This document shows positions 4,704 to 64,000 of a stretch of DNA of 64,000 nt, in pieces (the stretch's first letter is position 1; each line of letters opens with the position of its first letter). The DNA lies in assembly GCF_009763805.1 (NCBI RefSeq), contig NZ_CP046803.1, positions 1-64,000 of the forward strand. The letters run 5' to 3'. The notes beneath the pieces were generated by a model that was given only the letters and a program-made list of their open reading frames with translations, did no database searches and had not been told where the DNA came from. The DNA is from Vibrio cidicii (GTDB taxonomy: Bacteria > Pseudomonadota > Gammaproteobacteria > Enterobacterales > Vibrionaceae). The position numbers and the translations under genes are program-made.

Positions 4704-5637
4704 ATGACCATCGCAACTCGTAGTGAAAAGCTTATGAACAGTGAAGCCAAAGCTATTAGCAAATCCGGTTTACGTACACAAAAGAGAGTTGACTGGAGAG
4801 AAACGCATCTTCCATGGCCTCTTCTTAACCAGTGCGGTTATCGGTATCGTCTCTCTGGCCGTGATCGCCTACTTCATCGTGCGTGAAAGTATTCCCGCTT
4901 TCCAAGAGGCTGGTGTTTCGGGCATCGTCCTCGGTGAAGACTGGCTGCCACCTGCGCTTTATGGTGTCGCGACCATGATCGTCGCTTCAATGGTGTCCAC
5001 CTTTGGCGCGGTTTTGGTTGGTGTGCCTGTCGGGGTGTTAACCGCCATCTTTATCGCTGAAATTGCGCCAAAACGTGTCGCTGATATCATCCGTCCAGCG
5101 GTTGAGCTTCTCGCTGGTATCCCCTCAGTCGTGTATGGCTTCTTTGGTCTGGTTATCATCGTGCCTCTTATCCAGAACATATTTGATGTACCAGCTGGTA
5201 ACACCATTTTGGCCGGGATTATCGTACTTGGCGTGATGATTCTGCCGACGGTCATTACCGTTTCTGAAACCTCGATTCGCGCAGTACCGAAAGCTTACAA
5301 AGAAGGTTCTTTGGCGCTAGGTGCCTCGAAAATTTTTACTATCTTCAAACTGCTTGTTCCTGCTGCACGCAGCGGCATTATGACTGGCGTTATTCTAGGA
5401 ATTGGCCGAGCGCTTGGCGAAACCATGGCCATCATTATGGTGATGGGCAACGCTCCAGCCATGCCGCAAGGCATTTTAGACTCCGCTCGTACACTGACGG
5501 CAAACATCGCGATTGAGATGTCATATGCCAGCGGTGTGCACGCCAACGCACTTTACGCTACGGGTGTGGTGCTACTGGTGTTCATCATGATGCTCAATGC
5601 AGCTCTGCTTTACCTTAACCGAGAAAAAGCGAAATAA
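4704..5637 (+). CDS. pstC: Phosphate ABC transporter permease PstC (frameshifted)
   Basis: The inner-membrane permease subunit of the phosphate importer. The first 33 codons (MTIATRSEKLMNSEAKAI...) read from the ATG at 4704, then the frame slips: GAGAAACGC at 4800 should read GAGAACGC, so that WRERIFHG continues into the membrane part. Removing one A from 4801-4803 gives 310 residues, normal for PstC, with six transmembrane helices and the permease loop ETSIRAVPKAYKEGSLALGA. The downstream part alone could begin at a GTG at 4741, but its first 20 residues have no match to the family. The gene looks otherwise perfectly conserved, so I read the extra A as an artefact rather than decay. Confidence 0.9.
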
Positions 5638-5658
5638 TCGCTTGTGAAGGTGACAATT

Positions 5659-6522
5659 ATGGATCGCGCAAAATTAAAACAAGCACGTCAGTTTAAAGAC
5701 AATGTGTTAAGTGGCTTTATCTGGTTGGCAGCGGCTCTGACCGTTGGCTTCCTCTTCTGGATCATCTGGTACATTCTGTCGAATGGTTTACAGCACGTGG
5801 ATTGGAATTTCATTACTGACGATTACACTCGTACAGGCGATGAGCACGGCATCTTCCCGATGATCATCTCAACCGTTTACATGGTTATCGCTTCTATCGC
5901 AGTAGCGGCGCCTCTGGGCATCATGACCGCCATTTATTTAACCGAATACGCCAAAGTGGGTAGCCGCTTGGTTAAAGTGATTCGCTTCTGTACCGAATCG
6001 CTGGCGGGTATTCCATCGATTATCTTCGGTCTGTTTGGTATGACGTTTTTCGTTGCCATTCTTGGACTTGGTTTCTCGATTCTCTCCGGTGCATTAACTC
6101 TGAGTATTCTGATTTTGCCTGTGATTATTCGTACCACGGAAGAGGCGTTGATGGCCGTGCCACAAACGTACCGCGAAGGCTCGTACGGTCTGGGTGCATC
6201 TAAAATTTACACTATCTGGCGTTTGATTCTTCCAAGCGCAATGCCAGGTATCTTAACCTCGGTCATTCTAAGTATTGGTCGTGTCATCGGTGAATCCGCG
6301 CCTGTGTTTCTCACAGCAGGCATGGTTGCACGTATTCCTGACTCGTTATTCGATTCAGGCCGTACGCTAACGGTTCACCTTTATAAGCTAACCACAGAGC
6401 TGTTTACCATCGAAGAGTGGAATCAGGCTTACGGTACAGCAACGGTGCTGATTGTATTGGTCCTTTTGATCAACATGGTGACCAAACTGATCGCCAAGCG
6501 CTTCAACACCGCAACGTATTAA
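5659..6522 (+). CDS. pstA: Phosphate ABC transporter permease PstA
   Basis: The second permease subunit, 287 residues from the ATG at 5659, which has AAGGTGAC just upstream. It has six predicted transmembrane helices, a periplasmic loop after the first (residues 45-70), and the cytoplasmic coupling loop TTEEALMAVPQTYREGSYGLGA, the equivalent of the EAA motif that contacts PstB. The C-terminal helix is rich in Val, Leu and Ile. It lies 21 bases after pstC and 58 bases before pstB in one operon. The frame is intact, unlike its two neighbours. Confidence 0.95.
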   Translation: MDRAKLKQARQFKDNVLSGFIWLAAALTVGFLFWIIWYILSNGLQHVDWNFITDDYTRTGDEHGIFPMIISTVYMVIASIAVAAPLGIMTAIYLTEYAKVGSRLVKVIRFCTESLAGIPSIIFGLFGMTFFVAILGLGFSILSGALTLSILILPVIIRTTEEALMAVPQTYREGSYGLGASKIYTIWRLILPSAMPGILTSVILSIGRVIGESAPVFLTAGMVARIPDSLFDSGRTLTVHLYKLTTELFTIEEWNQAYGTATVLIVLVLLINMVTKLIAKRFNTATY

Positions 6523-6580
6523 TTACTGCGCGCTTTCGCAGGTTAAATGACACGAATTTTCCGATTTAGAGATAAAGAAC

Positions 6581-7331
6581 ATGAACAAATTTGATATCGA
6601 AAACTTAGACCTTTTCTACGGCGACAACCAAGCGCTTAAAGCGATCAACCTACCGATTCCTGTTCGTCAAGTGACGGCGCTGATCGGCCCTTCAGGCTGC
6701 GGAAAATCGACGCTACTGCGCTGCCTCAACCGCATGAACGATCTGATTGAAGGGGTAAAAATCACCGGCAAATTGGCGATGGATGGTGAAGATATTTATG
6801 GCAACGTTGATGTCGCCGATCTGCGCATTAAAGTCGGCATGGTGTTCCAAAAGCCAAACCCATTCCCAATGAGTATCTATGAAAACGTGGCTTATGGCCT
6901 GCGTGCTCAAGGCATCAAAGACAAAAAACATATCGATGAAGTGGTCGAAAGCTCTCTGCGCGGTGCCGCGTTGTGGGATGAGGTAAAAGACCGTCTGAAA
7001 TCACACGCGTTCGGCCTTTCTGGTGGTCAGCAACAGCGTTTGTGTATTGCCCGTACGATTGCCATGGAGCCGGATGTGATTCTGATGGACGAAACCGACC
7101 TCCGCACTTGACCCGATCGCAACGCACAAAATCGAAGAGTTGATGGAAGAGCTGAAGAAGAACTACACCATTGTCATCGTAACCCACTCGATGCAGCAAG
7201 CGCGCCGTATCTCCGACCGTACCGCTTTCTTCCTGATGGGAGAGCTGGTGGAACACAATGAGACGCAAGTGATTTTCGGTGAGCCGAAAGATGACCGCAC
7301 GCGCGGCTATGTGAATGGTGACTTTGGTTAA
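6581..7331 (+). CDS. pstB: Phosphate ABC transporter ATPase PstB (frameshifted)
   Basis: The ATPase that drives phosphate import. Walker A (GPSGCGKST, about residue 33) and the signature LSGGQQQR (about residue 147) are in the first frame. The Walker B segment VILMDE is followed by a slip: GACGAAACCG at 7088 should read GACGAACCG, restoring MDEPTSALDP. Without the extra A at 7092-7094 the gene encodes 249 residues, the usual length, with the H-loop VTHSMQQARR near residue 200 and the C-terminus TRGYVNGDFG. As sequenced, the protein would stop just after Walker B and be inactive. It has the same one-base error as pstC in the same operon. Confidence 0.9.
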
Positions 7332-62429: not shown

Positions 62430-62446
62430 TCCAATTACGATCAAAC

Positions 62447-62480
62447 AAACAGATCAAAGTGAACCCGCTTTGATCTGTTT
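62447..62480. terminator. Bidirectional terminator after the endopeptidase gene
   Basis: AAACAGATCAAAG at 62447-62459 pairs perfectly with CTTTGATCTGTTT at 62468-62480, lying between the convergent M23 and GGDEF-EAL genes. Confidence 0.85.
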
Positions 62481-62495
62481 GAAACGATTTTCTGT

Positions 62496-64000
62496 TTAGG
62501 CGCTGCGTGCGTTCTGTGCCTGCAATCTAGCAATAATTTCCTGAGGTTTTTGCGGTTTGGAATAGTAGTAGCCCTGAATTCGCTCACAGCCCATCTCAAT
62601 CAGTTTGTTCAACTCACTTTCTTCTTCAACCCCTTCGGCGACCAGATCGACATTGAGTTGGCTAGCTAATTGAATAATCAACCAAACAACACGTTCGGCG
62701 GTTTGGTTGCTGAGCATATTGCGCACAAAACTGGCATCAATTTTTATGGCATCAATAGGGTAGCTATAGATGTAATTCAAGCTAGAATAGCCCGTACCAA
62801 AGTCATCCAGTGCGATTTGAAAGCCTTTCTGCCGTAGTGCATCAAGCAAAAGTAGCTCTTTTCCAGATTGAGTCAGTAAGACCGTTTCAGTTAGCTCGAT
62901 AACAAAATCTTTCGGATGGTGGTGATACTTGCGCATCATCGAATCGAGAAAAGCCAAATAGCGTTGGTCGTTGACCAGCTCATAAGCTGAACAGTTAACT
63001 CCGAGTTTGACTCGATAGCCTAGCTCATTTTCCAGCCACACTTTACTTTGACACGCCAACTCAATAATGCGTTCGCTTAACTGAGTAATTAAGCCAGACT
63101 GTTCTGCAGCATCGATAAATTCAACGGGTGATACTGCCCCATACTCAGCGCTGTTCCAGCGAGCGAGCACTTCAAAATAGTCCCAGCGTTTGTTATTGAC
63201 ATTAACAATGGGCTGAACCACGACATAAAATTCCTCGCTTTGTTCGACAGGTAAGGAGAGTTGCTCGCGGATAGCTTCAATCAATTGTGATTTACGGTGG
63301 TAGTGCGCACTGAGATGTGTATCGTAACTGCGTATCCGTTCTTGAGGATTCTTCTTACACTCTTTCATCGCCAAGGTAGCGTTGAGGATCAGTTTCTTCA
63401 CCGCTCATCACTCGTTTGTTGACTGCTTTTGCTATGCCCATACTGACATCAAAACTGACATGGTTACATTTATCTTGATACCCAGATGAGAGGCTGTGCA
63501 AAATTTGTTGGCAGACATCTTCTGCCTGTACTGCGAAAGTAATAAGAGCAAACTCATCGCCAGAAATTCGATAGGCCAACCTCGGTGGTGGCAAGACCTG
63601 ACGAATGGCATTGGCAGTAAATTTAAGAATTTGGTCGCCGACGTAGTTACCGTGAATATCATTGATCAATTTGAAGTTATCAATATCTAAATAGACTAAA
63701 GAAAACGGGCTCTCAGTCTGTTCGGTTAGCATCTCCAAGGTATCACTCAAACTACTGCGATTCTCCAAGCCAGTGAGATTGTCATGAGAAACTTCGTAGC
63801 TGAGTTGATTAACCAGTTGATCAGATCGAGCTGTGAGCCACTGTTCACGCATGCTTTGCGCCGCTAATTTTGCGTACACTTGATGGTGCTTGATCAGATT
63901 AACCGTCTCCTCAGGCGGTGAGTCATACACGGAGATCAACATACCCAGAATGTCACCATTGGGTGCGTGAAGCGGAATCCCGACAAAGGTTTTGATTCCC
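62496..64000 (-). CDS. GAF-GGDEF-EAL protein, 5'-truncated by window edge (frameshifted)
   Basis: The frame is open to the window end, where a GAF-like tail is visible (FVGIPLHAPNGDILGMLISV). Next come a GGDEF domain with the altered motif YRISGDEF (SGDEF for GGDEF), and an EAL domain with EVLARW (EVL for EAL), LTETVLL, DDFGTGYSSLNY and DLVAEGVEEESE. The two domains are split by a frameshift at 63392-63396: CAGTTTCTTC on the plus strand should be CAGTTCTTC, giving VMSGEELILNATLAMKECKK. The EAL catalytic residues look complete, so phosphodiesterase activity is likely; cyclase activity is less certain. Matches the Vibrio cholerae gene beside shyA as I recall it. Confidence 0.87.

Follow-up and report, generated by a model that had tools for sequence, protein, structure and literature searches.

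The first 64,000 nucleotides of contig NZ_CP046803.1 of Vibrio cidicii (RefSeq assembly GCF_009763805.1; this whole stretch is referred to below as the window) raise the question of why so many of its genes are interrupted by one and the same change, a single extra base that turns the tetranucleotide GAAC into GAAAC, or GTTC into GTTTC. An earlier, sequence-only reading had listed eleven genes broken in this manner and had ascribed the insertions to a systematic process, for which it named no cause. The genome comprises two contigs, here termed C1 and C2, with the window on C1. One class of phosphorothioate (PT) modification, in which Dnd enzymes swap a backbone oxygen for sulfur after the G, has GAAC/GTTC as its motif. 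From the comparison with relatives, the genes affected, the Dnd complement of the genome and the flanks of the altered sites, we consider it very likely that the extra base is a consensus base-calling error arising from PT modification.

Two relatives served as references, G125 and G174, which a genus-wide DNA search matched to a 2-kb query at equal length with 96 and 95% identity, respectively; both lie outside the 29 of 227 genus genomes in which the sulfurtransferase DndC was found. From each relative 200 kb was compared with C1:1-264 kb; 139 kb aligned at 95.7% identity for G125 and 118 kb at 94.3% for G174. The eleven pentamers stand where the sequence-only reading had placed them, five as GAAAC and six as GTTTC on the plus strand, and the comparison with close relatives that it had proposed as a check came out in its favor, V. 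cidicii having one base more than both G125 and G174 at 11/11 window sites, always within GAAAC/GTTTC. Across C1:1-145 kb there are 29 such extra-base sites, 28 visible against G125 and 25 against G174. They represent 29 of the 824 GAAC copies (3.5%) in C1:1-145.5 kb, which agrees with the earlier remark that many GAAC sites are untouched. When homopolymer runs with identical flanks were compared between V. cidicii and each relative, an A had been gained in 21/660 GAAC runs against G125 and in 17/523 against G174, as opposed to 0/7,460 and 2/5,972 runs in the eight other XAAY contexts; the reverse event, loss of one A from GAAAC, was found in 0/303 and 0/258 cases. The pattern is real, directional and tied to one tetramer, and the earlier claim of one motif-bound process, as distinct from random mutation or homopolymer error, is borne out by these counts.

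Within the aligned part, 43 single-base differences are common to the comparisons with both relatives, namely 25 GAAAC/GTTTC insertions and 18 others. The insertions fall within reference open reading frames (ORFs) of both relatives in 23 cases and of one relative in two. Among the 18 other differences, none of those in the window lies within a reference ORF common to both relatives, so that the assertion that no gene is broken in any other way stands for the window as far as it was tested; outside the window it fails, four of the 18 lying within ORFs of both relatives. These four are one-base deletions in C/G runs of 4-5 at C1:74199, 75140 and 96450 and an insertion at C1:71297, and are likely ordinary long-read errors. 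Errors other than GAAAC/GTTTC do exist in this assembly, and the deletions in C/G runs fit an unpolished long-read assembly.

The process extends well beyond the window. A reference-free scan, based on a seven-state Viterbi frame model trained on the genome's own long ORFs, was run over 844 kb in six stretches from both contigs, and frame switches were scored for a GAAAC/GTTTC within 25 nucleotides (nt), which would occur by chance at about 11% of positions. Such a pentamer accompanied 75 of 103 same-strand +1 switches, 40 of the 44 internal +1 switches (those far from stop codons) and 1 of 30 -1 switches; in an earlier run over 499 kb, no 5-mer was more enriched than GAAAC around internal switches, those of either direction being counted (26/31, p = 9e-21). 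The fingerprint is absent from the close relatives that lack the enzyme, the same scan over 400 kb of G125 and G174 placing 0/5 +1 switches near GAAAC/GTTTC. The insertion process is genome-wide and present on both contigs; extrapolated from 28 sites per 139 kb, it would amount to ~950 sites in the genome.

The genes that are split bear directly on whether the cell or the assembly is at fault. A block at C2:2.9-3.1 Mb holds 21 GAAAC-linked switches, for 20 of which the larger piece was scanned. Among the genes split there are rpoC, which encodes RNA polymerase beta', and ftsY, rpoH and lysA. Comparison with an intact rpoC places the extra base of that gene at GAAAC, and an independent search likewise showed it to be split; in ftsY, rpoH and lysA a GAAAC/GTTTC lies no more than 25 nt from the frame switch. 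Of the four, rpoC and ftsY are essential genes, and rpoH and lysA are essential under some conditions. True frameshift mutations would be expected to spare essential genes, and here rpoC and ftsY are split; for this reason real mutation was rejected as the cause, and we conclude that the living cell very probably carries unbroken copies of the affected genes, the fault lying with the assembly. The statement that the genes are broken by the insertion, correct for the deposited sequence, is then very probably untrue of the organism.

A genus-wide search for rpoC gave a match in 224 of 227 genomes, and the seven with more than one match, V. cidicii and G010 among them, were reopened. Split rpoC genes were also found in G158, G116, G097 and G001, all without DndC, and there the gene breaks through deletions or at sequences other than GAAAC; in G158 it is a one-base deletion at a place where the reference reads GAAC. 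Another of the seven, G085, has an intact copy of rpoC. As a separate observation, the two-contig genome G239 gave no rpoC match in this search although it is listed as 100% complete.

The enzymes that would write a PT mark at this motif are encoded on C2, which carries genes for DndB, DndC, DndD and DndE and for the restriction partners DptF, DptG and DndH. The DndC sulfurtransferase (TIGR03183, C2:667119-668520) scores 346.6 bits on the larger of its two pieces against a cut-off of 290.4; DndB (TIGR03233, 466 bits), DndD (TIGR03185, 497 bits) and DndE (TIGR03184, 94 bits) are likewise above cut-off, and DptF (TIGR03238), DptG (TIGR03236) and DndH (PDLC02685) score 513, 295 and 2221 bits. Identity to the proteins of E. 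coli 55989 is 74% for DndE, 68% for the larger DndC piece and 52% for DndD. The dnd locus shows the same damage as the rest of the genome: the assembly breaks dndC into two pieces whose overlap contains one GTTTC, and it also breaks the gene adjoining dndB for a phosphorothioation-associated putative methyltransferase (TIGR04096, L012:14906-16931), again with one GAAAC/GTTTC where the pieces overlap. Against the dnd locus of V. cincinnatiensis, 7.2 kb align at 94.5% with three gaps, all of them single extra V. cidicii bases at GAAAC/GTTTC, and two further matches to that locus (1.1 and 1.6 kb) have no gaps. In a class-wide dndC search (a match in 10 of 369 genomes, V. cidicii included) no other split dndC appeared among the matches listed; the short dndC of G237 stops at a contig end. 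The specificity loop on the first DndC piece reads GYPAPTRSFRW and thus holds T-R-S, the residues given at the three loop positions for hosts with PT at GAAC/GTTC in a 2025 study (PMC12193691), where other residues are given for GATC and GGCC. Between dndE and dndH we also observed a DGQHR-type protein (DpdB/DndB-like) and an HNH protein (L012:8386-9561 and L012:6678-7556); a DGQHR protein occupies a similar place in E. coli dnd loci.

Which GAAC copies are affected is not random with respect to their surroundings. At the 29 affected sites the preceding base is A in 15, C in nine, G in five and T in none, compared with T at 288 of 795 unaffected sites (p = 4e-6), and the following base is T in 13, G in seven, C in seven and A in two, compared with A at 267 of 795 (p = 0.002). 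The second base after GAAC is G in 18/29 and never T (p = 4e-4), and the flanks have a guanine-plus-cytosine fraction of 0.56 at affected and 0.48 at unaffected sites. An independent set of 50 sites from other stretches of the genome, placed by the frame scan only, gave A21 C20 G6 T3 before and G23 T14 C7 A6 after the motif. The earlier observation that T never precedes the motif accordingly survives for 11/11 window sites and for 29/29 in the larger stretch, and has to be softened to a strong depletion in view of the three T among the independent 50. The preferences for A/C before and T/G after are mutually complementary, so that both strands show the same preference, which is what a mark carried by both of them would give.

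This profile can be set beside published PT sites. In Salmonella Cerro 87, EcoWI-seq found 12% of sites modified, with A/C before and T/G after the motif and with CG-rich surroundings (PMC9521924). Nanopore error mapping in Salmonella scored 3.9% of GTTC copies and 4.4% of GAAC copies as modified, with more in cells lacking dndB and, in cells lacking dndC, a nondetectable share of GTTC and 0.6% of GAAC (PMC9069010). The affected sites of V. cidicii resemble these in their flanks and in the nanopore-mapped share of ~4%.

If PT is responsible, other genomes with Dnd should show the fingerprint where they were assembled in a comparable way. The genus search leaves 28 DndC-positive genomes besides V. 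cidicii, and we sampled one 20-kb stretch from each of 17 further Dnd-positive genomes in few contigs and from three genomes without Dnd. Of all these genomes only G010, one of the 17, had a +1 switch near GAAAC, and G108 had one -1 switch near GAAAC. The DndC loops of the 17 comprise eleven TRS, one TKS and five of the R-x-K type, the last being the type reported for GGCC (PMC12193691). At the V. cidicii rate of ~1.8 events per 20 kb a blank 20-kb stretch clears no genome, and the number of affected genomes is therefore a lower bound. G010, which is Dnd-positive with a TRS loop and matches the pst genes of the window at 79%, was extended to 200 kb: 19 of 25 +1 switches and 13/13 internal ones lie at GAAAC, again the top 5-mer (p = 1e-13). 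It is a second Dnd-positive species with the same GAAAC fingerprint. Its 17 sites are preceded by A7 G6 C4 T0, against a T background of 34% (p = 0.001), and followed by G7 T4 C4 A2. In G010, too, rpoC is split: a loosely aligned stretch containing a GTTTC has a net extra base, and the split is probably one of the GAAAC-linked breaks. This two-contig genome is recorded as 95% complete and 5% contaminated, figures that may reflect split genes. In G127, which has no Dnd, 1 of 3 internal +1 switches over 100 kb lies near GAAAC, to be read against the chance level of ~11%.

We propose the following sequence of events. The Dnd system of V. cidicii is predicted to place PT between the G and the A (or the G and the T) of GAAC/GTTC. 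Native DNA would then have been read on a long-read platform, probably nanopore, and assembled without adequate short-read polishing. Sulfur beside the G would perturb the pore signal, and the base caller would resolve the disturbed AA as AAA. At sites marked in most molecules the consensus would keep the extra A, with no short reads to correct it, while the genes would be intact in the cell. Consistent with this, the errors are limited to the modification motif and to part of its copies; a few unrelated errors exist besides.

Several points weigh against this proposal. The presence of PT and the nanopore platform are both deduced from the sequence of this strain. Sixteen of the 17 other Dnd-positive genomes had no +1 switch near GAAAC in their 20 kb, and G207, Dnd-positive with a TRS loop, had 0/2 over 100 kb; polishing is offered here as a conjecture for the blank genomes. 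A dndCD match was found in 204 of 5,426 E. coli genomes, and in the six dnd loci that were opened the dnd genes are intact throughout, complete RefSeq genomes being probably well polished. In G010, G precedes the motif roughly as often as A or C does, and the shortage of A behind it is not significant (p = 0.18). For E. coli B7A, PMC6459556 reports that ~60% of PT sites are modified in <5% of molecules, that 0/8 sites checked by droplet digital PCR (ddPCR) are >50% modified, and that high-frequency PT sites have no extra flank consensus; that the flanks had little influence on PT in vitro is reported in PMC4515589. Since a consensus error needs the agreement of most reads, either occupancy is higher here than in B7A or the error dominates polishing.

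The rival explanations differ in what they ask of the motif and of the cell. Base methylation at GAAC, such as N6-methyladenine (6mA), could upset the base caller in place of PT, and the TIGR04096 putative methyltransferase gene next to dndB would be a possible source; the motif, the low occupancy, the strand-symmetric flanks and the TRS loop of DndC all match PT, however, and we regard methylation as unlikely. Dedicated methylation usually marks nearly every copy of its motif, compared with 3.5% here. The force of this last point is limited, in that errors due to methylation also hit some copies only: nanopore assemblies are known to contain errors at part of the copies of methylation motifs (PMC12392509). 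A weakness of the base caller for GAAC itself, with no modification involved, would account for errors confined to one tetramer in an assembly that also holds a few unrelated one-base errors, but leaves ~96% of GAAC copies called correctly and the affected ones picked by their outer flanks; the errors are moreover seen in two Dnd-positive genomes and in neither of the 200-kb Dnd-less controls, G125 and G174, and rpoC breaks in other ways in the four genomes without DndC. We hold this to be very unlikely. Ordinary homopolymer error, for its part, was rejected because it does not account for a gain restricted to GAAC; besides these gains the assembly has a small number of deletions in C/G runs and one further insertion in coding sequence.

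Two further possibilities accept the extra base as real. Slippage or repair at PT sites might add an A at GAAC in this lineage and have broken hundreds of genes, and the insertions do stand in the deposited sequence and are motif-specific; against this, rpoC, ftsY and dndC itself are split, no reverse event was seen (0/303), and relatives at ~95% identity are free of GAAAC-linked +1 switches in 400 kb, which makes true insertion extremely improbable. That programmed frameshifting or transcript slippage keeps the genes working in spite of a real extra base has nothing in its favor beyond the breaks themselves. Three consecutive A make a short run for slippage, and the 29 sites of the 145 kb fall in unrelated genes and in both orientations and are missing from relatives, which makes such a mechanism hardly conceivable.

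The proposed consensus error at PT sites stands close to three known systems. With the Dnd systems of the GAAC/GTTC type it shares the gene set (DndBCDE and DptFGH), the TRS loop of DndC, the motif, the low occupancy and the flank preference, and it differs in that here the modification is predicted from an error pattern and genes. With error-based PT mapping by Oxford Nanopore Technologies (ONT) sequencing (ONT/ELIGOS, PMC9069010) it shares the principle that PT at GAAC/GTTC raises the base-calling error, although that method uses read-level statistics relative to a control, as opposed to the fixed one-base consensus insertion seen here. With methylation-induced errors in nanopore-only assemblies (PMC12392509) it shares the conversion of some motif occurrences into consensus errors; the errors described in that work are miscalled or ambiguous positions close to methylated bases, whereas those in V. 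cidicii are uniform, gene-splitting insertions at the motif of a backbone modification. PT biology, the detection of PT by nanopore and assembly errors driven by methylation (PMC12392509) are already known; none of the literature matches listed described PT as a source of frameshifts in assemblies.

The finding is an artefact with biological content. As an artefact it would leave hundreds of intact genes in such genomes labelled as pseudogenes or split proteins, to the detriment of databases and of comparative studies. As a signal it comes free of charge, and could reveal active Dnd strains, modified sites and flank preferences where PT was never measured. We lean slightly towards the stronger view that the assembly amounts to a base-resolution PT map, in which each change of GAAC to GAAAC marks a site modified in most molecules, and that Dnd-active strains and their preferences can be read from assemblies. 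If this is true, occupancy at the chosen sites would far exceed the level of a few percent that most sites of E. coli B7A are reported to reach. Dnd-active strains together with site preferences ([AC]GAAC[TG]) could then be recovered from public long-read assemblies with no laboratory experiment, as G010 already suggests. The finding also bears on an open question in PT biology, namely what selects the GAAC sites that become modified, a part of the total, and to what extent each is modified.

The eleven window sites are collected in Table 1. For the putative thioesterase gene, the single short piece that was scanned had no NCBIfam match.

Table 1. Window sites at which V. cidicii has one extra base relative to both G125 and G174, with the domain or family matches of the genes concerned; pentamers are written as they stand on the plus strand.
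Gene	Position	Strand	Pentamer	Match or remark
pst permease	4800..4804	+	GAAAC	Pfam BPD_transp_1 on downstream piece
pstB	7091..7095	+	GAAAC	ABC_tran; TIGR00972 PstB on downstream piece
GAF-GGDEF (cdgA)	8879..8883	-	GTTTC	weak GAF upstream, TIGR00254 GGDEF downstream
VWA (batA-like)	13403..13407	-	GTTTC	PF00092 VWA
DUF4381	14335..14339	-	GTTTC	PF14316; kept reference ORF in G125 only
DUF58	15411..15415	-	GTTTC	PF01882
putative thioesterase	25857..25861	+	GAAAC	name taken from the sequence-only reading
cheV	48639..48643	-	GTTTC	CheW and response regulator
alpha-amylase	53278..53282	+	GAAAC	PF00128
M23 endopeptidase	61653..61657	+	GAAAC	PF01551, NF053825 ShyA
GGDEF-EAL	63392..63396	-	GTTTC	EAL, GGDEF

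Two minor observations concern the layout of the genome. In G125 the pst region lies on a 3.24-Mb contig, C1, and rpoC on the other, whereas in V. cidicii the larger contig carries rpoC and the smaller one pst; this reflects either an exchange between chromosomes or a difference in assembly. Tandem repeats with an 8-base unit containing GAAAC are present in V. cidicii at C2:2515004-2515056 and C2:2994921-2994957.

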